Below are positions 2,830 to 13,873 of a stretch of DNA of 64,000 nucleotides, piece after piece. A program made the translations under genes and the position numbers. The stretch's first letter is position 1; each line of letters starts with the position of its first letter. Source of the DNA: Nanobdellota archaeon (GTDB lineage Archaea; Nanobdellota; Nanobdellia; Tiddalikarchaeales; Tiddalikarchaeaceae); the NCBI GenBank assembly GCA_016931175.1, contig JAFGFH010000026.1:1-64000 (forward strand). The letters run 5' to 3'. The notes below the pieces were generated by a model, which was not told where the DNA came from, ran no database searches, and saw only the letters and a list, made by a program, of their open reading frames with translations.

Positions 2830-4947
2830 TTAATCCGATTCCTCTCTTATCTTCTTTGCTATTCCAGGCCCAATTATTGCTGCAATCTTTTCAAACGGCG
2901 CCTTGATTACTTCCTGGAAGTTCTTGTAACCAGCATTGTATAATTTTCTTGCTCTCACGCGGCCTACCCCTTTAATACTAACCAGGGTGAAGAGTTCGTC
3001 CTTGATTCCGTAAGCGAACCTTGTTCTTAACCTCTTCGCGTAACCAACCATGTTCTTCTCGCCGAAGATGTTAGACAGCTCAACCATTGAGTATAGTAAC
3101 CAGTCAATAGAGTAGATGTAATTCCTCAAGTCGCCGGGGAAGACCTTATACGCTTCGCTAATAGATTGTTCGCTGTCTTCATTAATCCATGACTCGAACA
3201 TTAAACTAGTCTTAATGCTTCTCAAATAATTATCATACTCGTAACTGAAAGGATTAGGAACATCAATTAATAACTCACTCTCATCACCCAAGCCCACGAG
3301 TTTGCCTGCCTCTTTGCCGTTAATGCTTAAGTTTCTCACGCCGCCGCTGTAGCATAAGGCTTGGATAATAGTGAAACTGCTCGGCTTAATACGCTTAGCC
3401 TTGACAATGCTGCAGATTATATTATCCGCAACTAAAGGGTCAAGGTATAATTCACTAACCCTCCTGCCCAGAGCAGTTGCAGTAATAGTGTCCTTGTTCT
3501 TTTCAGCAAAGGTGAAATGAACGAGTTGGACAACAATGTTCTCAATTAACAAATTCAATTGTGACAAATTCTTGTACTGTTTTGCGAAAAAAGTATTCTT
3601 GAAAAAATTCTTCAAAGATTCAAAGCTTGTGCAGAAATTGTTAGCAATTAAAGCAAGCACGTGAGTTCTTAACGCAGGCTCCACACCTAATTTAGAATAA
3701 ACCGCTTCAACCTCGCCGTTAATGTATTCACTGAATATTTTCTCCTTGTCAGTCTCACTCTTCGCAATAGCCAATGCTTCCCCGTATTCCTCAAATCCGG
3801 GCCTGCCCGCCCTGCCAAACATCTGCTTAACCTCAAGTACTGGAATGAAGTAATTGCCCGTTGTCTGGCTGTACCTAGTCAAGTCTCTTACTACTACTCT
3901 GAAAGCTGGAAGGTTAACTCCTGCAGCAAGAGTTGGAGTCGCGCAAATAACTTTGAGAGTCCTGTCCCTGAACGCCTGCTCAACCAACTCCTTCTGGTTC
4001 TGGACTAGTCCCGCGTGGTGGAAGGCAACACCATTTCTTACCAAGTCGCTTAATAGTCTGCACTGTTCAGTCGGCTGCTCTAAAGAATACAATACCTTAT
4101 CCGCGATTATGTCAAGCCTTGACTTCAAATCCGGGCTTAAAAATTTTTCAACCAAACCACTTAACCTCTTAGCCAACCCCCTCGTGTTCCTCCTGCTAGC
4201 CATGAAGAATATTACCTGCTTATCCCTCACTAGAGTATCCTTTGTTATACTCTCCTCCTCACTCTTATAATCTTCAATAACGTAAGACTTGTCCTTGAAG
4301 AATAATTCACTGTTAAAGTATACACCCTCAAATAATTCAACAGGCCTGTAACTGCTCTTAACCAGTTCAGCATTAAGCCACTCGCTAATCTCGTAATCAT
4401 TATTAATAGTAGCGCTTAAGCCAATAATCTGAGCCTTCGGCAATAAGTGCTTCAAAGTAGTGATTAACACCTCGAGGGTGGGGCCCCTGTCAGCGTCATC
4501 CAGCAAGTGAATCTCGTCAATTACAACACAGGACACTCTTCTGATAAAAGCAGCGTTGTGTCTTATGAGACTGTCTGCTTTCTCACTCGTGCAGATTATT
4601 ACATCAAAGTTGTTCAAGTAAGGGTCCTGCTTGTCAAACTCTCCAATACTCAAAGCAACTCTTAACCCGTGCTTCTCGTACAAGGCTTTGAAGCTAGAGT
4701 ACTTCTCAGTTGCCAAACTCTTCAAGGGAACAATGTATAAAGTCTTGCCCTTGTTCTCAAAATGTTTAATCATGGCGATCTCAGCAACTAGGGTCTTCCC
4801 GCTGCTCGTAGGGCTGCTGATGATTAAACTCTTACCCTCAAGCACTCCTTTGTTAAGGCTTAAAAGCTGTGGAGGCCGAAGCTCAGTTATGTTCTTTTCT
4901 TTAAGGTTTTCTTTTATAATTTTTGGAAGCTCTTGCATAACATACAT
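2830..4947 (-). CDS. hel308: Hel308-type Ski2-like DNA helicase
   Basis: 705 residues, the usual Hel308 length. In order: Q-motif region ITELRPPQLLSL, Walker A SPTSSGKT (about 45-52), Walker B VVIDEIHLLDD, motif III LSATI, motif V AGVNLPAF and motif VI QMFGRAGRPG. Then come a winged-helix and ratchet region and a C-terminal helix-hairpin-helix, LFTLVSIKGVGRVRARKLYN and IAAIIGPGIAKKI. Hel308 unwinds lagging-strand forks and acts in replication restart and repair. A TATA-like TTTAAAAG lies about 20-25 bases before the start, so the transcript is nearly leaderless. ATG codons at 4947 and 4938 are both possible starts. Confidence 0.93.
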   Translation of the reverse strand: MYVMQELPKIIKENLKEKNITELRPPQLLSLNKGVLEGKSLIISSPTSSGKTLVAEIAMIKHFENKGKTLYIVPLKSLATEKYSSFKALYEKHGLRVALSIGEFDKQDPYLNNFDVIICTSEKADSLIRHNAAFIRRVSCVVIDEIHLLDDADRGPTLEVLITTLKHLLPKAQIIGLSATINNDYEISEWLNAELVKSSYRPVELFEGVYFNSELFFKDKSYVIEDYKSEEESITKDTLVRDKQVIFFMASRRNTRGLAKRLSGLVEKFLSPDLKSRLDIIADKVLYSLEQPTEQCRLLSDLVRNGVAFHHAGLVQNQKELVEQAFRDRTLKVICATPTLAAGVNLPAFRVVVRDLTRYSQTTGNYFIPVLEVKQMFGRAGRPGFEEYGEALAIAKSETDKEKIFSEYINGEVEAVYSKLGVEPALRTHVLALIANNFCTSFESLKNFFKNTFFAKQYKNLSQLNLLIENIVVQLVHFTFAEKNKDTITATALGRRVSELYLDPLVADNIICSIVKAKRIKPSSFTIIQALCYSGGVRNLSINGKEAGKLVGLGDESELLIDVPNPFSYEYDNYLRSIKTSLMFESWINEDSEQSISEAYKVFPGDLRNYIYSIDWLLYSMVELSNIFGEKNMVGYAKRLRTRFAYGIKDELFTLVSIKGVGRVRARKLYNAGYKNFQEVIKAPFEKIAAIIGPGIAKKIREESD

Positions 4948-5007: not shown

Positions 5008-5018
5008 CTTATAAAATA
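5008..5018 (+). promoter_or_regulatory. TATA box of the surface-protein operon
   Basis: CTTATAAAATA lies 22-32 bases before the ATG at 5040, the spacing of a leaderless archaeal promoter. No comparable box is seen before the next five genes, which are tightly spaced or overlapping, so this probably drives the run 5040-13115. Confidence 0.55.
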
Positions 5019-5039: not shown

Positions 5040-6206
5040 ATGAAGAGGGCTCAAACAGCAGTTCCAGCAGTTCTTTTAACCACTATGGCATTAATAATCT
5101 GGTACGTTCTCTGGTTATACCCTCAGCAAAGGTACGAGTTATTATTCGGAACAGAACCTGAAGAGGTTATTAGTGAAGGATTGTTAGACTCTAGTTTTCT
5201 TAGAACAACCGTTGGAGAGATTGGACAATCAAGCGGTGAGTTATTAGACACTCAAATCGTTAGCGATTTAAGTGTTTCCTACCCTGAGACGAGGAGCACT
5301 ATTTCAAGCTTTGACTCCCAGATAATTACTGCTTCAATTATTGCAAGTGGGCACAAAACCGTTGATTTAACAACGCTTGATTCTGACAAGGTAAACGTTG
5401 AAGTACTCGCGTCCTCAGTAGTTGGCAGTCCTAAACTACGAATCACACTAAACAATACACTAATTTATGATAATGAGTTAATAGCAGACTCTAAGACCAG
5501 CGTTGATATCTCAAAGGCAAGCCTTGAAACTTACGGCAGAATACTTAGAATTACTTGCCAGTATAACGGCTGGCAGTTCTGGACAACACAACAGTGCGGA
5601 TTCAACTCTATTAATGTTTATGATTACGTCTATGCTCCAGTGGACTTAACTGACTCTGACGTATTCTACTTAACACCAAATAGTGAGAATGCTGAACTCA
5701 TAGAGTTAACCTTTACTCCAACAAGAGTATCAGAGCACCAGGTTAGTATTCAAATAAACGGTGTTAACGTGTTCACCGGCGCTTTGCAGGCTGAAGAGAC
5801 GACTCTTAGCTTGGAAGGTGACGAAGTAAACCTCGGCATTGATAATAATATTACTCTGCTAGCACTTGAAGGTGCTGATTACGTCTTGACAGATGTTGGT
5901 ATGAAGTTTTACTCAGTTCCAAGCGGGTTAGCGGCGAAGTACTTAGTCTTTGACGTTCCGGAGAGGACTTTGAGAAGAGAGGACAGCGTGACATTAACTT
6001 TTGACTTGACAGGGATTGTGGAGCCCGGGGACGTAAATATTGACGTCTTAAACACTGGAGTTAAGTATTTACTTACACGGGATGAATTAGTTCTAGGAGC
6101 TAACAGGGTTGACTTGTTAACGAGTGACTTGGAAGAGTACGGTAATAACATTAAAATATACAGCACGAGTGGCAGATTAATAATAGGAGAGATAGTAATA
6201 GAGTAA
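5040..6206 (+). CDS. Pilin-like signal-anchored extracellular protein
   Basis: 388 residues. The N-terminus MKRAQTAVPAVLLTTMALII, then a hydrophobic run to about residue 30, looks like the class III (prepilin/archaellin-type) signal common in DPANN surface proteins: short basic head, Q/T near the +1 site, long helix. The remainder is a beta-rich extracellular region with repeated blocks of similar style (VNVEVLASSVVGSPKLRITLNN and VSIQINGVNVFTGALQAEE), suggesting two or three Ig-like or jelly-roll domains. First gene of a six-gene operon of membrane and lipid-anchored proteins. No specific family recognised. Confidence 0.7.
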   Translation: MKRAQTAVPAVLLTTMALIIWYVLWLYPQQRYELLFGTEPEEVISEGLLDSSFLRTTVGEIGQSSGELLDTQIVSDLSVSYPETRSTISSFDSQIITASIIASGHKTVDLTTLDSDKVNVEVLASSVVGSPKLRITLNNTLIYDNELIADSKTSVDISKASLETYGRILRITCQYNGWQFWTTQQCGFNSINVYDYVYAPVDLTDSDVFYLTPNSENAELIELTFTPTRVSEHQVSIQINGVNVFTGALQAEETTLSLEGDEVNLGIDNNITLLALEGADYVLTDVGMKFYSVPSGLAAKYLVFDVPERTLRREDSVTLTFDLTGIVEPGDVNIDVLNTGVKYLLTRDELVLGANRVDLLTSDLEEYGNNIKIYSTSGRLIIGEIVIE

Positions 6207-6237
6207 ATAGGATAAAAAAAATGAGGGTTAAATAATA

Positions 6238-6540
6238 ATGGTAACGGGCGAGGAGAAGAAACCAGGCATATTTTCAAGATTTCAAACAGCAATGCAGACA
6301 GAAGGTATAGACCCTCAGACTAAACAACCTATTATTAAAAAGAATGTTTTAGTAATGAATAGGAGAACGAAGGGTTTATTAGTTTTATGGGGCGTTTGCG
6401 TTGCTCTCTTCTTTTTCATATTTCCTTTAATGATTGGAATGGTTAGTTCAGGATTTGTAGACTTCAGCAACCCAATAACCATTGTTTTAGGAATCATTAA
6501 TGCTGCAATTCTTGTTGGAATAGGAGGTTTCGCGCCATGA
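6238..6540 (+). CDS. Small membrane protein (2 TM)
   Basis: 100 residues. A cytoplasmic-looking head of about 40 residues (GEEKKPGIFSRFQTAM, then a basic KNVLVMNRRTKG) precedes two transmembrane helices, LLVLWGVCVALFFFIFPLMI and ITIVLGIINAAILVGIGGFA. The stop overlaps the start of the next gene by 4 bases (ATGA), so the two products are probably translationally coupled and may form one complex. Family not recognised. Confidence 0.7.
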   Translation: MVTGEEKKPGIFSRFQTAMQTEGIDPQTKQPIIKKNVLVMNRRTKGLLVLWGVCVALFFFIFPLMIGMVSSGFVDFSNPITIVLGIINAAILVGIGGFAP

Positions 6541-8525
6541 GCAACGGTGATATTCCTGAACAGCAGGCAGAGGGCAGTGGAACCACGGAAGCTCAGGCTA
6601 AAAAAGCTATTTCAGATGATTTGAAAAAAACAAATGTAATATATGCCTTATTAGCGCTAATCATAGTATACGCGATAGTCATGGTAGGTTTTTTTCAAAA
6701 CCCTGCTGACGGCAACAGGATATTAATGAACGCAGCGTTCTTCACAGCAATAGGCGCTATAATATACATGGCCTTCTACCTCGTATTCGTAAGCTTTCGC
6801 CCAATGCCTGATACTGAGGCTATAGTGAATATTTTCAGGGTTACTTACAAGGTTGCGAGAATATTTTCAATCTCCACTTTCGCACTAGTTAATGCTTGGA
6901 TTTTATTCGTCAGCCCTTTCAGCTTCTTCGGAGGAAGCGTTTACGGAGGAATAATGCAAGGTATACTAATTCTCCCATTGCTCTTCTTACTCATTAATTT
7001 CTGGGTTAGCGGAAGCATTCCAGGATTAGTTCTTATAGGCGTAGCGTGCTGCGTGCTCTTCCCATTAAGCTTCATGTTCCCAACAATGTTTACAAACTTT
7101 TACGCCATTAGTACTGGCAGCAGCGCAGCAGCTGGAGGAACACTTATGAGCAACTTCGCAGTGGTTGACCCAATGAGTTATTACAGGAGCAGCATCTTAA
7201 AACAGGGCATAACAGAGCAGGTGACTGGACCAACCTTTGAAGAGATAACTGATGACGTAGTAGGCGTTGAAGTGGAGGTGGAGGGCAGAATGTGCGATGA
7301 CAGCGACATAGTAGCAACTGTGCGTTTAGACAACGAAGCCAAGTATAAGATAAGCAACGTCTACGTTCAACTCTCCAGCATTAAAGATATTTACGCCTCT
7401 TTCTTCACAGGAGGAGCAGTTCATTTTGACATCTGCGGTATAGACTTCGAGCCGTTAATACCAGGTCCGAACATTTACGCTGAACAATGGGTTAGTGACT
7501 TGCCTAAGGGAGCGCCCGCGACTGTAATTAAGACTTTCCAGGCGAGCCTGCCTCCAGACGTTTTGCAGCAGTACTGCGGTATAAGAACAGACGTTGTATT
7601 AAGTTATCATACTACGAGCGTTTTCCCATTAACTTTCATAGACAGCAAGAGTTACTTTTTAGAACCCGTTAATATTGGAAACCCTGGAAGCATTTCAAGC
7701 TTTGGAAAAGTGAGGATTGACATGGACGTTGGCCAGCAGCCCGTTCCAGTTAATGATTTAACAAAAATAAATGATACTATACTCTTAAAAGTGGGATGGC
7801 AGCCCAAGGATGAAGCGCTAGTAAGCAATCCCGAGCTTTACTTGTTCCTGCCCGGAGACTTAGGGGTTTGCCAGGACACCACACTTAATAGTTACGGAGT
7901 AGGCAATGGATTGTTCCAGTTCAGCGGAAGCGTAATACAGGACATTTATGACAAGAAGTCAAGGTTCAAGTTCCCTGACTTTGAATGCTATAATAATCTG
8001 GACATAAAAGAGTTCTGTAGTAATGAAACATTCTGCACTTTCACGAGGGAGAGCGTGAAGTACGGGTTATGCAGCACTTACCCTGATCTTAGTGATGAGG
8101 ACTACGATGAAGCGCTCGCATTATTCAACTCTTACCGCAGCAACCTATGCAGTGATACTAAGAACGCGATATGCAATAATTTACTGCCTATCACTTCAGA
8201 GATTAGCGTTAACGAGTTAAGAGCTGACCCGATGAAAGCGCTTACTTCATTCACCAACAAATCTGAGGTTGCTTCAGGCAGAAGTTTGAGAGTTCCCGGC
8301 GCTGAAGGAGTGTGCGATGAATTAGTTAATGAGATGAATTACTCAATATGCAAGGCCAGATTCAATCCAACAACTAATGAGGTATTATTCTGCACTCTCA
8401 GCCTTAAAGGAATCGACGTTTCAGAGGTTGACATGAACACTTACTTAGTAAGGGCTGACGCAGTTTATGACTTCCACGACGTGACTATTACGAACTTTAA
8501 CATTGATAATTGTGATGCGATATGA
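6537..8525 (+). CDS. Polytopic membrane protein with large Cys-containing external domain
   Basis: 662 residues. After about 28 hydrophilic residues come roughly six transmembrane segments up to residue 195 (VIYALLALIIVYAIVMVGFF, FFTAIGAIIYMAFYLVFV, GILILPLLFLLINFWV and more). The remaining 460 residues look extracellular, beta-rich and rich in Cys, including VEVEVEGRMCDDSDIVATV and a Cys-dense part near 480-560. It overlaps its neighbours by 4 bases on both sides (upstream ATGA, downstream ATATGA). As the only multi-helix protein of the operon it is a natural membrane anchor for the lipoproteins. Function unknown. Confidence 0.75.
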   Translation: MSNGDIPEQQAEGSGTTEAQAKKAISDDLKKTNVIYALLALIIVYAIVMVGFFQNPADGNRILMNAAFFTAIGAIIYMAFYLVFVSFRPMPDTEAIVNIFRVTYKVARIFSISTFALVNAWILFVSPFSFFGGSVYGGIMQGILILPLLFLLINFWVSGSIPGLVLIGVACCVLFPLSFMFPTMFTNFYAISTGSSAAAGGTLMSNFAVVDPMSYYRSSILKQGITEQVTGPTFEEITDDVVGVEVEVEGRMCDDSDIVATVRLDNEAKYKISNVYVQLSSIKDIYASFFTGGAVHFDICGIDFEPLIPGPNIYAEQWVSDLPKGAPATVIKTFQASLPPDVLQQYCGIRTDVVLSYHTTSVFPLTFIDSKSYFLEPVNIGNPGSISSFGKVRIDMDVGQQPVPVNDLTKINDTILLKVGWQPKDEALVSNPELYLFLPGDLGVCQDTTLNSYGVGNGLFQFSGSVIQDIYDKKSRFKFPDFECYNNLDIKEFCSNETFCTFTRESVKYGLCSTYPDLSDEDYDEALALFNSYRSNLCSDTKNAICNNLLPITSEISVNELRADPMKALTSFTNKSEVASGRSLRVPGAEGVCDELVNEMNYSICKARFNPTTNEVLFCTLSLKGIDVSEVDMNTYLVRADAVYDFHDVTITNFNIDNCDAI

Positions 8526-11107
8526 AGAGAGTATACTTTTTTTTAATGATTGCAGTATTAATCCTGGGCTGCACTGCCCAGGAAGAGCCTGAAACTCAAA
8601 GCCAGACCTCTCTGCAAAGGGAGTCTAGGTGCGCGAGCAACGAGGACTTGTGTATTATAGGAACTCCTGGACTTCTTAACAGGGACGGTGTTTACAGCAG
8701 CAGCGACACCTTCTTCAGTTTAGTGTTAAGGAATAACTTGCAGGGCCAGGAGGCGAAGAACGTTGAGATTCAGTTAAAGAACGTTGGCCCTTTCAAGATA
8801 GTTGAAGGATTCACTGCAATAATAGAGAACGATAGTTGCAGGTTAGAAGTGGGAGTGTGGGGGCCCCACATTGAGAGGGATATTACTAACAGTCCTAATC
8901 CTCAATTCGTTGACGACTTAGGACTTCCTTTTGCCAAACACAAGCTTAACGTTATGTACCCCAACGAGGAGGTTGAGTTTACTTGGAGGCTTAGAGCGCC
9001 CTCATTCCAGGAAATCGCAGACGTTGCATACGAGCACAGCTTTGACTACGTTGTAAGTTATGATTACAGTTCAGGAATACTCCAAACAGTTTATGCAATA
9101 AGTGAGAGCGAGTACCAGAGGCAGTTAAGCATTACTGGAAACGAGCCTTCAACTACTGGAACAATAACGGGAAGCGTTGGAGCATTATCAATTGCGAGCA
9201 ATGTTCAGGAGCCTGTAAGGGTTCAAAACATTGGAAGCCAGTTCTCACTGCTTTACCAGATTCAGAACCAGAGAACAGGAACACCAACCAATCCTGCAAT
9301 GTTCTTGCTGCAATACCCTGAAGGTTTAAGATTCGTTGGAGACTTTGTTGGAACCACTTCTCTTGAAGAATTCGGCTACATTGACTTGATGAGTGCTGTA
9401 AGGTATTATAACGGTTCTGATGCTGGTTTTGAGGGAGGAATCTGCATACCAGTGGATTACGACGAGGACAGTGAAATAATTCCAAAAACTCATTATGATG
9501 GAGAGGGTTATACTATCTTTGGAAACCAGTTAGCAAATAATACCTGCTCACTAACATTTAAGTCAGTAACTCTTTCAAATCTGCTGGCTTACATTAGAGA
9601 GGAGTTTCCTGATTTAATCTTTGACGAGCAGCAGCCGAGGCTGGTTATTAAATTCTTGTACCCTAATGACTTAAAGGATGAAGTTAATTACTTATACTTC
9701 CCAATGGAAGTCAGGGAAACTATTAACATATCAAAGTATTACACGTTCAGGCTAAAGACTAAGTACAGGTACAGCTTCTCAGGAGAGGATGACATACTAA
9801 TCGTGCCTAATATTGCAAGCTTTGAATCAGAAACAGAGACTGGTGTTGGATTCTTTTGGGGAGACATGACTCCTAACCTCCAGTTCTTGGCGGACACTGA
9901 AAGGGCTGAAACTCCTGACAGGTACTTTTACGACTCAGGCTCTAATAGTTTAACAATAGACTTGAACACTCCAAGGGAGGATATTGAATTAATATCAAAG
10001 GTTAAAAGATTAGCTAATTACAACTTTTTGCATGTTATAAGCTTGAACAGCAACGAGGAGCCTAGGAGAATAAACTGCGAACAAGACAGTGACTGCGATT
10101 TGTTCTACTGCAACCCCTCTGATAATCTTTGCTACTTTGATGATGCTTACATCCGCGTAATAGAAGTTCCTAACGTTTACAGCATGGATGTAGGCTACTA
10201 TACAGGGGATTCAAGGATTAACAAGATACTGAGCACTGACGCTGATTATTACAAGATTGACGTGCGCCCGTTAGTTTTCTTTAACGAGTACCCATACCCT
10301 GGAGGGGATGAAGAAGTTGGAGCTCAAAGGGAATCAGTATCAGAGCACGAGTTAAGCTTCACAGTTTCAACCCTTGAAGACTTAGCAGAAAATATTGACG
10401 CTTTTGTTAAGAATAAGGCTTTCTTCGAGGTCAGGAACGCTGAAGGCATCATATTATCTGACAGCGACAAGATAGGATTCACGCTTGACACGGGAAGCTA
10501 CGAGAGGCAGAGGACTACAATACCTGATAACTTGAAAATAATAAATTACTACGACAACGAGACTTACTTTGAAAAGCTTCTGTCTAACGGCAACTCGATA
10601 ATTGGAGCTTACACTTCACAAACGAGCCTTCAAAGCAGCCAGTTACTGTTCTACTTCTTCAATAATGATGGTGTTAACCACTTCCTTGACTATAATATCA
10701 GCATGTTGAATGCTACAATAGAAGTGGGCAAAGTCAGAGTGACTCCGTTAAACATTGTAAGAAAGTACACTAACGCTTTCAGCGAGTCTTACTCAGCAGA
10801 GGATTACCCTTACACTAAGAACGCTCCAGCAGGTATGTACTTGTTAAAATCAAGAGATTTCGATTACGGCAGTGATTACTTAAACTGCGGAATTAATGGG
10901 GATAATATCAAGCCCGTTATTGTGATAAGCTACCGCGATGAGGTAAGGACAATTCCTTTCTTTGACGAGGTTGAATCTTACGAGGACGGCAGGATAATAA
11001 TAGGAGACTACGTTGATTGCGCGTCAATGAATTTAGTTTATGGTATAGGTTGCGACAAGGTTACATTCGTTAGGGGAGTGGTTAACTTATGCGCTGCGAA
11101 GGGGTGA
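8522..11107 (+). CDS. Large surface lipoprotein
   Basis: 861 residues with a lipoprotein signal: MKRVYFFLMIAVLILGC, the Cys in a clear lipobox (LILGC). The mature protein is beta-rich, with CARDB/NEW3-like phrases such as VLRNNLQGQEAKNVEIQLKN and VEFTWRLRAPS, i.e. repeated Ig-like domains. Around residues 520-540 sits a small Cys module with the spacing C-x5-C-x4-C-x6-C (CEQDSDCDLFYC). It starts 4 bases inside the previous gene. Probable role: part of an envelope-anchored external complex. Not matched to a named family. Confidence 0.78.
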   Translation: MKRVYFFLMIAVLILGCTAQEEPETQSQTSLQRESRCASNEDLCIIGTPGLLNRDGVYSSSDTFFSLVLRNNLQGQEAKNVEIQLKNVGPFKIVEGFTAIIENDSCRLEVGVWGPHIERDITNSPNPQFVDDLGLPFAKHKLNVMYPNEEVEFTWRLRAPSFQEIADVAYEHSFDYVVSYDYSSGILQTVYAISESEYQRQLSITGNEPSTTGTITGSVGALSIASNVQEPVRVQNIGSQFSLLYQIQNQRTGTPTNPAMFLLQYPEGLRFVGDFVGTTSLEEFGYIDLMSAVRYYNGSDAGFEGGICIPVDYDEDSEIIPKTHYDGEGYTIFGNQLANNTCSLTFKSVTLSNLLAYIREEFPDLIFDEQQPRLVIKFLYPNDLKDEVNYLYFPMEVRETINISKYYTFRLKTKYRYSFSGEDDILIVPNIASFESETETGVGFFWGDMTPNLQFLADTERAETPDRYFYDSGSNSLTIDLNTPREDIELISKVKRLANYNFLHVISLNSNEEPRRINCEQDSDCDLFYCNPSDNLCYFDDAYIRVIEVPNVYSMDVGYYTGDSRINKILSTDADYYKIDVRPLVFFNEYPYPGGDEEVGAQRESVSEHELSFTVSTLEDLAENIDAFVKNKAFFEVRNAEGIILSDSDKIGFTLDTGSYERQRTTIPDNLKIINYYDNETYFEKLLSNGNSIIGAYTSQTSLQSSQLLFYFFNNDGVNHFLDYNISMLNATIEVGKVRVTPLNIVRKYTNAFSESYSAEDYPYTKNAPAGMYLLKSRDFDYGSDYLNCGINGDNIKPVIVISYRDEVRTIPFFDEVESYEDGRIIIGDYVDCASMNLVYGIGCDKVTFVRGVVNLCAAKG

Positions 11108-11134
11108 ATAAAAGATTTGGAGAGTGATTTTAGT

Positions 11135-12040
11135 ATGAGAAAAACATTGCATTTAATAGCGTTAATAGTCTTGCTTGCAGGGTGCACAGGAGGAGGGCAG
11201 GAGGTTGACACTACTCCTGCGGGAGGCACTCTGACAATGAACGTTGCAATCGATGATAATCTCATAGAACAGGGCGGTTCAACAAGCATTGATTTAAGCA
11301 TAACTAACATGTTCTCTAATGATATTGAGAATATTGATATTATCATGGAGCCAAGGACAACAGGCATATCCTACGTTGTTACAGGACCTGACAGTGTTGA
11401 AGATGGAGTTACTGAGGAGTGGACTATAGAGTTGTCAACCTCTGCAGGTTTAAACCCAAGGACTTACAACTTGTACCCAGTAATCTGCTTTGATTACACC
11501 CAAGAACACATAGGTTATTTCAGGGCATCAAGAGGCACGCCTTCAGACGGCGTGGATTACACACTATCAGACACTGGACCTTTAGACATAAGCTTTTCAG
11601 GACTGAGCTCTTTAAACTCTAATGAAGAGCAGAAAATGGATGTTTTAGTCTCCTTTGATTTGGGAAATAAGATATCAGGAGGTTCAAGCATTTACGAGGA
11701 TGAGAACGAGCTGAGCTTCGTATCAGGACAGTTCAAGCTTGACACTGTAGAACAGTCCTTAATCCTTAAAACTAACGAGGGAGGGGCTAATAATTACTTG
11801 AACACTGGCAGCGACAACAACTGCGTTGTCCAGACAGGAGGGGATTACATGGGCTACGCGGTGTGCTACTTCACTCCATCAGCAGGCTACGACGCGAGCA
11901 AAGACTTCGACTTTGACATAATCGTTAACAGGGACTTGATGAGCGAGATAGAGTCAAGCTTCTCAACAGAAGTAACTTACAGGTACTGCTTCAGGAGCAC
12001 TTCAACAGTTACCAGCATAACAGTGGAGGAGACTAATTAA
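11135..12040 (+). CDS. Surface lipoprotein with Ig-like domain
   Basis: I take the ATG at 11135 because it puts a clean lipoprotein signal at the N-terminus: MRKTLHLIALIVLLAGC with lipobox LLAGC; a TTG 18 bases upstream would only add a polar head. About 301 residues. The mature part begins with a Gly/Thr linker and a NEW3/CARDB-like domain (GGSTSIDLSITNMFSNDIEN, VTEEWTIELSTSAGLNP). Followed after one base by another lipoprotein gene. No enzyme motif seen. Confidence 0.75.
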   Translation: MRKTLHLIALIVLLAGCTGGGQEVDTTPAGGTLTMNVAIDDNLIEQGGSTSIDLSITNMFSNDIENIDIIMEPRTTGISYVVTGPDSVEDGVTEEWTIELSTSAGLNPRTYNLYPVICFDYTQEHIGYFRASRGTPSDGVDYTLSDTGPLDISFSGLSSLNSNEEQKMDVLVSFDLGNKISGGSSIYEDENELSFVSGQFKLDTVEQSLILKTNEGGANNYLNTGSDNNCVVQTGGDYMGYAVCYFTPSAGYDASKDFDFDIIVNRDLMSEIESSFSTEVTYRYCFRSTSTVTSITVEETN

Positions 12041-12041
12041 A

Positions 12042-13115
12042 ATGAAAAGAGTAGTATTCACCCTCCTGCTTGTATTAACTGTTGCAGGCTGCACCCAGCA
12101 GATTAACCAGTACAGCACCAGGGGAGTTTACCAGTCAGTTCAGACTGACTACGACCTTGACGTGTTAGTAACAGACGAGCTGCAGATAAGAAGAACCAGC
12201 CTATTCAGTGAGGAAATGACAAGGTTAACACTAAATCTTATCAACCTGGCAAATGTTGACTTCTCAAACGTTAAAGCAGTATTGATAAACGCTGATGACT
12301 TAAGTCCTCAAGCAACCTTTGATTACGCTCCTTTAATTGAATCAAATCATAGTGAAAGGTTCGAGTGGGACTTAACAGCGCCAGTACTAGGATTAGGAGA
12401 ATTATTAGTGCTTGACAACATACTCGTGCGCGTCTATTACGACGCTTACGCTGAAACGAGCAAGGCGATAATCTTGAAAGAAACTGGAGACAGGGCTTAC
12501 AGGGAAACTTACTCAGAGTCAACACAGGGCCCGGTAGCGATATACTTTGACACTAGTTACGAGACACTAACAACAGTTGAGAACAGAGTCAAGGACTTCA
12601 CAGTTAACCTGATATACTTCAATAATTACAGCGGAGTAGTTGATTATTATGATAATACTAACATTGATGATAATTACATGAAGATTTTAATAATAGGAAT
12701 AGACAAGACTCTAACGTTCTATAATTACCTGGATGAGGACAACCCGTGGACTAAGGTGGAAGAGACGTTTAGTGATGAACAATTAGAGGATTTAGGTTTA
12801 AAACGCGACGACTTAATCTTAACAGATTATTACTATCTGGAATACCAGACTCTTGAATCAAGAGGTTTTGACTTGTGCAATATTGAAACACTGCAGTTAA
12901 GCACTGAAGAGTACGAGGATTTGCAGAACACGCTAACAGAACAGCGCAGAGTCTTATGGATGACTAGCGGTTACACCAAAGTTAACGTTTTAAGACTTGG
13001 AGCGCCGACAGTGGAATCAGACACTGAAGTATTGCTCACAGCCAGGGTTGAATACTCTTACTCGCAGGATTACGGCGGAGAAGGCTTCGGAGCAGTAGTT
13101 TACGGACTAGGTTAA
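12042..13115 (+). CDS. Surface lipoprotein, last gene of the operon
   Basis: 357 residues with lipoprotein signal MKRVVFTLLLVLTVAGC (lipobox TVAGC). The first domain again resembles the Ig-like domains of the upstream proteins (MTRLTLNLINLANVDFSN, RFEWDLTAPVLGLGE). The middle is acidic and rich in Tyr and Asn. One base separates it from the preceding gene. The 3' end overlaps the convergent PAC2 gene by 4 bases. Function not recognised. Confidence 0.75.
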   Translation: MKRVVFTLLLVLTVAGCTQQINQYSTRGVYQSVQTDYDLDVLVTDELQIRRTSLFSEEMTRLTLNLINLANVDFSNVKAVLINADDLSPQATFDYAPLIESNHSERFEWDLTAPVLGLGELLVLDNILVRVYYDAYAETSKAIILKETGDRAYRETYSESTQGPVAIYFDTSYETLTTVENRVKDFTVNLIYFNNYSGVVDYYDNTNIDDNYMKILIIGIDKTLTFYNYLDEDNPWTKVEETFSDEQLEDLGLKRDDLILTDYYYLEYQTLESRGFDLCNIETLQLSTEEYEDLQNTLTEQRRVLWMTSGYTKVNVLRLGAPTVESDTEVLLTARVEYSYSQDYGGEGFGAVVYGLG

Positions 13116-13873
13116 CCAATATACCTGCTCTTGTTGAACTCAGCTCTCTCTAATTGTTCCTTGTTTTGTTCAACCTTTTTAATTTCTTTGTTAATTCTTC
13201 TAATCTCCTTATTCAAGTCGCTTAAATCTACCTTGAATTTTAAATACTCACTTAAGAAACTAATAGCTTTCTTGCTCTCCTTGATGCCGAAATAGTTGGG
13301 ATGAGCCCAAGTGCTTACTAGTAAACAAAATCCTGGAATTTTTTTCTCAGCGCACTTGTCCAGCAATAATCCTGCACTGCCTATGATTAAACCCACGCTC
13401 TTGTTGCCGTCAAAGATTAAACCCATTTTTTCCAAACCCTTCTTCAACTTCTGGTCAGTTACTGCACCATGAAGTGTTATCTTGTCAGGTAATTCCTTGT
13501 AAGCAATGCCCGCAATAGTAATAACCTGCTTAATCTTGTTCTTCTTAACAAAATCTGCCAGGTAATTATTCGTCTTAAAACTGTAATACTCGCTTGTTGG
13601 AGGATAATTGTTCTTAACAAAGACTATCTTCTTATTCCCAACCTTTTTGAAGTAAACCGCGTAATGAGGAGGTTCAATGCTTGAATCCTCTTTTATTAAT
13701 ACAATATTAGGCAAATAGTCAGAGTATATCTTGCATATTAGTTCCGCGTTTAACTTATTAATCAAGTAATCAACAGTTATATGAGAAATGCTGCCGACTC
13801 CAGGAACTCCCTTAACCAGTACTGCATCATTAATGTCCTGCTTCTTAACAATTTTTATACTAAACTCTTTCAT
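13112..13873 (-). CDS. PAC2-family protein (proteasome-assembly-chaperone-like)
   Basis: 253 residues of the archaeal PAC2 family (COG2047-like): AVLVKGVPGVGSISHITVDYL at the N-terminus, the core IKQVITIAGIAYKELP, and VGLIIGSAGLLLDKCAEKKI ahead of ISFLSEYLKF. The C-terminus is a charged coiled coil (LNKEIRRINKEIKKVEQNKE). Archaeal PAC2 proteins are related to eukaryotic proteasome assembly chaperones; some bind proteasomes. The start overlaps the nop10 stop by 4 bases (ATGA). It ends the aIF2-alpha/nop10 operon, the usual archaeal place for this gene. Confidence 0.88.
   Translation of the reverse strand: MKEFSIKIVKKQDINDAVLVKGVPGVGSISHITVDYLINKLNAELICKIYSDYLPNIVLIKEDSSIEPPHYAVYFKKVGNKKIVFVKNNYPPTSEYYSFKTNNYLADFVKKNKIKQVITIAGIAYKELPDKITLHGAVTDQKLKKGLEKMGLIFDGNKSVGLIIGSAGLLLDKCAEKKIPGFCLLVSTWAHPNYFGIKESKKAISFLSEYLKFKVDLSDLNKEIRRINKEIKKVEQNKEQLERAEFNKSRYIG

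Follow-up and report, generated by a model that had tools for sequence, protein, structure and literature searches.

A conserved gene cluster of Nanobdellota encoding a putative multi-protein surface complex

Introduction

A run of six genes whose products all appear bound to the membrane of a small archaeon raises the question of what these proteins build together, and whether the structure touches other cells. The run lies in a 64,000-nucleotide stretch of DNA (the window) from a member of the Tiddalikarchaeales (Nanoarchaeota/Nanobdellota). Same-family loci in the public collection include a contig of Ca. Tiddalikarchaeum anstoanum LFW-252_1, an organism placed in this order of Nanoarchaeota (PMC8561730). 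A preliminary reading of the letters, hereafter the sequence-only reading, had proposed an envelope or host-contact apparatus.

Several surface systems of these and other archaea bear on the question. The Nanobdellota archaeon YN1 has an attachment organelle, an envelope-embedded contact structure whose proteins are yet to be named (PMC11420986). A possible attack on bacteria by transglycosylase-domain proteins of Pacearchaeota/Woesearchaeota was proposed earlier (PMC8204110, PMC9723730), and fam00969 of the same groups is an extracellular, single-protein family with murein transglycosylase domains, with large members of as much as 3,000 aa (Castelle et al. 2021, PMC8204110). Finally, archaea have peptidoglycan hydrolases, some of which kill bacteria (PMC12352652).

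Results and Discussion

Six clustered genes encode anchored proteins

Six open reading frames, named A to F, are confirmed on the plus strand with gaps of 31, -4, -4, 27 and 1 bp, in agreement with the close clustering (overlapping or 1-31 bases apart) first described. The cluster, whose size of some 8 kb had been remarked on at first sight, spans 8,076 bp, about 0.9% of the 887-kb genome (26 contigs). Signal, hydropathy and lipobox evidence agrees with the claim that all six products are membrane- or lipid-anchored. A TATA box had also been announced, and a candidate is indeed present about 24 bp upstream of the gene A ATG, inside a 92-bp divergent intergenic region. The features are as follows.

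5009..5016, plus strand: TATA-like TTATAAAA, read from the sequence in an AT-rich region, putative promoter element
5040..6206, plus strand: gene A, pilin-like protein with three jelly-roll domains (ORF, alignment, AlphaFold2 model, PDB fold search, phylum search)
6238..6540, plus strand: gene B, small membrane protein of 100 aa (ORF; homologues in loci L013-L016)
6537..8525, plus strand: gene C, multi-pass putative membrane hub with a two-domain Ig-like exterior, here without hydrolase (sequence comparison)
8522..11107, plus strand: gene D, first lipoprotein (ORF, lipobox)
11135..12040, plus strand: gene E, second lipoprotein, two beta-sandwich domains (lipobox, model)
12042..13115, plus strand: gene F, third lipoprotein, paralogue of E and D (ORF, lipobox)

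The start of gene E is taken as the ATG at 11135, which opens a standard lipoprotein signal, instead of the TTG at 11117 of the automatic ORF list. The cluster is flanked by a divergent DEAD-box helicase gene (2830-4947) and by a convergent PAC2-family gene (13112-13873), itself followed by an S1-like gene. In the Pfam and NCBIfam scan of A to F, no family matches A-E over the curated cut-off and the sole match above it for F is the generic lipobox model LPAM_1; sequence searches of the PDB found no matching family either. With no entry for these families in Pfam or NCBIfam, many genome annotations presumably list the genes as hypothetical.

A pilin-like arm and four related ectodomains

The N-terminus of A carries a class III-like signal, MKRA↓QTAV (K-R-A↓Q), followed by a single membrane helix, as judged from sequence and alignment. 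The motif K/R-G/A↓Q and the hydrophobic helix after it are found in most A proteins examined, with cleavage predicted at this site. Pilins use a glutamate at position +5 (E5) for subunit assembly; this residue is missing from all A proteins examined, except those of L061 and L145 (family f15). In these two loci (L061:11398-12555 and L145), a lone A with the pilin-type E5 is found, C and the lipoproteins not being alongside. Two A proteins of about 570 aa (L066:8217-9920 and L127:7278-9020) bear a cysteine-rich insert with repeats like CPSGCxxxxDxDCCF.

The AlphaFold2 model of A (mean pLDDT 85) is composed of the membrane helix and three beta sandwiches, which match, per domain only, jelly-roll carbohydrate-active proteins, BcsB and the triple-jelly-roll STIV turret in Foldseek. 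As the whole-chain TM-scores of these per-domain matches are low, for A as for E, they name folds and not relatives. The PDB sequence search with A gave only a sub-threshold match, with the N-terminal region of a GH26 mannanase, and 24 diverse A proteins gave only stray single matches against Pfam.

By hhalign comparison, A is unrelated to C, D, E and F. D, E and F, which each carry a lipobox, are paralogues of one another (98-99.7%), and the exterior of C is homologous to them (62-92%). The Ig-like exteriors proposed by the sequence-only reading thus hold for C-F, but not for A, which has a triple jelly roll instead. The model of E (pLDDT 77) contains two beta sandwiches, whose fold-search matches are generic Ig-like. 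In D, the conserved two-domain core occupies the N-terminal ~430 aa and is followed by a C-terminal extension of ~430 aa. As D reaches 808-1116 aa in the window's family, while most other families have a D of about 300-480 aa, this C-terminal part is a family-specific addition. It carries a C..DSDC...YC cysteine motif and has no Pfam match. Variant anchors are seen elsewhere: in family f13 (L057, L059, L060, L148), pilin-type or plain N-terminal helix anchors replace the lipoboxes, and the anchored proteins of L113:2326-5228 and L137 have odd signal ends, with GQxC instead of a standard lipobox.

Hydropathy indicates several membrane passes in both B and C. Homologues of B are seen only in the same-family loci L013-L016 and are absent from the other loci compared. 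The C protein of L060 (family f13) has an N-terminal, presumably cytosolic C2H2 zinc finger, as a weak Pfam match.

The cluster is conserved across the phylum and behaves as a unit

The order A to F is kept in four same-family genomes (in the same-family genome G001, A is split over two frames and some bases of C are unsequenced). Phylum-wide, a core order recurs, consisting of A, C and up to three lipoproteins (D, E, F). A profile built from six A proteins matches 202 of 378 class genomes, and one built from 24 A proteins matches 286 of 371 genomes, including 218 of the 243 high-quality ones, mostly in single copy. Sixty-five loci, chosen for carrying A and spanning about 60 families, with some contigs ending early, were compared: in 49 of them the genes after A comprise a long membrane-spanning one and two or more anchored ones, and in 42 the anchored ones number three or more. 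The long gene (C) overlaps the following gene in 41 of 55 cases, in a start-stop manner, and a lipobox is present in 111 of 136 cluster genes versus 11 of 302 background ORFs. The layout of the 49 loci and the lipobox excess over background make this arrangement far from chance. Furthermore, 65 of 70 matches of the C profile and 116 of 129 matches of the lipoprotein profiles fall inside the gene run, the remainder being in the same loci.

The phylum-wide lipoprotein profile fails to reach the window's family with HMMER; profile-profile comparison links the window proteins to the phylum-wide lipoproteins (E 96%, D 97%, F 81%). When 28 genomes were searched with the lipoprotein profile, most A-positive genomes matched, beside A wherever positions were compared; in family f36, two lipoprotein copies lie about 8-30 kb from A. 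All 11 tested genomes of families f5 and f7 that lack a full-length A are also without lipoprotein matches, and one genome (G051) has a lipoprotein match and no A match. The shared presence and absence of A and the lipoproteins, together with the profile links, indicate that the system behaves as a unit. The synteny check suggested at the outset was run, and the homologues are found in conserved order instead of scattered singly. With this order conserved, the lipoproteins gone from the 11 tested genomes in which A is not complete, and no known non-surface system matching, the idea of an envelope apparatus working as a unit is well supported.

Wall-cutting enzymes are fused to C in several lineages

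In at least ten other families, C ends in a C-terminal murein hydrolase recognized by Pfam, located beyond the Ig-like region. The enzymes are: (i) SLT, above cut-off on C of L068, L118, L121, L122, L128 and L139, and just under it on that of L119, (ii) glucosaminidase, on C of L065 and L113, (iii) M15_4, on C of L117, and (iv) M23, on C of L144. The proteins bearing them, each encoded directly after A, are true C homologues (E 1e-14 to 1e-153), their catalytic motifs appear intact by eye in the sequences inspected, and no wall-binding Pfam domain was detected in the C proteins scanned. Four unrelated peptidoglycan-cutting enzymes, at the same position of one subunit, point to bacterial walls.

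Two observations count against the reading preferred below. No catalytic murein-hydrolase domain is found in the window proteins, C included, nor any SLT gene anywhere in the source genome, and SLT domains are present in 168 of 371 phylum genomes, mostly in genes other than C. The proposal that SLT marks this system was dropped, SLT being too common across the phylum. Outside the cluster, SLT often occurs in ORFs of 1,000-3,400 aa, and f5 genomes without A are rich in SLT domains.

The fusions can be compared with two sets of known proteins. fam00969 is similar by its phylum, its surface location, its SLT domains and its proposed contact with bacterial walls (PMC8204110), but it has been described without an operon, lipoproteins or a pilin-like partner, whereas C carries any of four enzymes here, SLT among them, and in some lineages only. 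The archaeal peptidoglycan hydrolases, which are prominent in Nanoarchaeota, have enzyme classes in common with the C fusions, including M23 (PMC12352652); they are modular proteins with wall-binding domains, whereas the enzymes described here are fused to what would be the membrane hub of a conserved complex.

Loss and truncation in the Nanoarchaeum-type lineage

A split reverse gyrase, a hallmark of Nanoarchaeum equitans, is present in family f7. In three f7 g9 genomes, A is reduced to remnants of ~152 aa (151-152; L223:9559-10014, L225:9156-9614 and L227:7591-8049), which consist of the helix and the beginning of the first domain, and C and the lipoproteins are gone. The view that f7 lacks the system was nevertheless corrected, as one genome (G038, L224:7251-14150) retains A and C together with two anchored genes, while a truncated A is kept in the other f7 genomes examined. 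In family f5, A was not found by profile search. The G038 cluster sits between a Pelota-like gene and a pair of S1-domain and PAC2-like genes (named by sequence resemblance); it also adjoins a multi-pass, prepilin-peptidase-like gene. Its PAC2 and S1 neighbours, similar to those of the window, suggest that the cluster held an ancestral chromosomal position and decayed late in the f7 lineage.

As the split-gyrase lineage is the branch with proven archaeal hosts and mostly keeps a truncated A only, the idea of a host-attachment device is weakened. The host-contact part of the sequence-only reading is therefore left in a mixed position, with indirect help from the hydrolases fused to C elsewhere, and with the truncated A of this lineage and the near-universal single copy of A against it. 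Although the cluster resembles the YN1 organelle in being envelope-embedded and from the same phylum, the Nanoarchaeum-type lineages examined have mostly a truncated A, which makes it unlikely that the two are identical.

Proposed function and alternatives

The reading that we prefer, with a probability of about 0.45, is that of an ancient hetero-oligomeric complex of the Nanobdellota, located on the cell membrane and engaging the surfaces of other cells. It is likely that the cluster proteins form one complex, and plausible that this complex touches other cells; contact with bacteria is supported for the lineages with hydrolases only. C would be the membrane hub, and C, D, E and F, as apparent duplicates of one two-domain Ig-like ectodomain, would probably stand side by side in one crown, held by the membrane helices of C and by the lipid anchors. 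A may enter the membrane via its pilin-type signal, probably trimmed by the single A24 prepilin peptidase of the genome, with its three jelly rolls, which resemble carbohydrate modules, projecting as a stalk or a binding arm. In other genomes, an A24 peptidase gene adjoins or lies near the cluster. In several lineages, a hydrolase at the outer end of the hub could breach the bacterial wall where the cells touch, and the window genome would have a bare version of the complex, the hub being without hydrolase.

The main rival, which we regard as rather unlikely while taking it seriously, is a constitutive envelope scaffold, which in every cell would anchor or space the S-layer or organise the space beneath it. 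Encounters with other organisms would then be incidental, and the hydrolases on C a defensive add-on of some lineages. The near-universal, single-copy presence of A fits such a general or core envelope role and suggests housekeeping; the position of the cluster among translation genes, kept over long distances, and the combination of lipid or membrane anchors with beta-sandwich ectodomains would also suit a scaffold. That unrelated wall-cutting enzymes have been fused repeatedly to the same end of C suggests, on the contrary, an outward role. High sequence divergence would be odd for a structural necessity, and so would the fact that two families have lost or truncated the system.

Less probable still is a non-canonical type IV pilus or pseudopilus, with A as the pilin, C-F as the base and an ATPase encoded elsewhere. 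The cluster resembles archaeal type IV pili by the pilin-type N-terminus of A, class III-like in most A proteins, and by the A24 peptidase of the source genome, where five T2SSE-type matches above cut-off are also found (contigs C13, C19, C9, C12 and C20 of G000). In family f13, an A24 peptidase gene adjoins the cluster and the lipoproteins have pilin-type signals. However, no assembly ATPase or TadC-type platform gene is found in the cluster or among the genes next to it, the T2SSE matches being on other contigs, A is without E5 outside f15, and its large, multi-domain exterior far exceeds that of a pilin.

A membrane-protein folding or translocon-accessory complex akin to the eukaryotic TRAP complex, which likewise combines multi-pass and single-anchor subunits with Ig-like, beta-sandwich ectodomains, is very improbable: the likeness in sequence and fold comes down to one weak match of a single generic Ig-like domain of E to TRAP subunits (fold search, E about 1e-3) with no PDB sequence match, the wall-hydrolase fusions and the carbohydrate-module-like A are ill-suited to it, and the loss from whole families would be surprising.

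Significance

No description of the operon or of its protein families was found in the literature, in a search that was thin on subscription journals. As far as the literature and databases were searched, the surface system is real, conserved and apparently undescribed before, its folds themselves being common. A surface complex of five genes that most members of a large phylum have in common is a concrete candidate for the interaction of DPANN archaea with their partners, and the hydrolases on its hub make attack or docking on bacteria by these archaea directly testable. A bolder version, which we hold to be doubtful, is that nearly all Nanobdellota share one cell-docking surface machine, whose hub is armed in several lineages with exchangeable peptidoglycan hydrolases to breach bacteria. 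If this were true, many uncultured Nanobdellota would contact bacteria, and not archaea alone.
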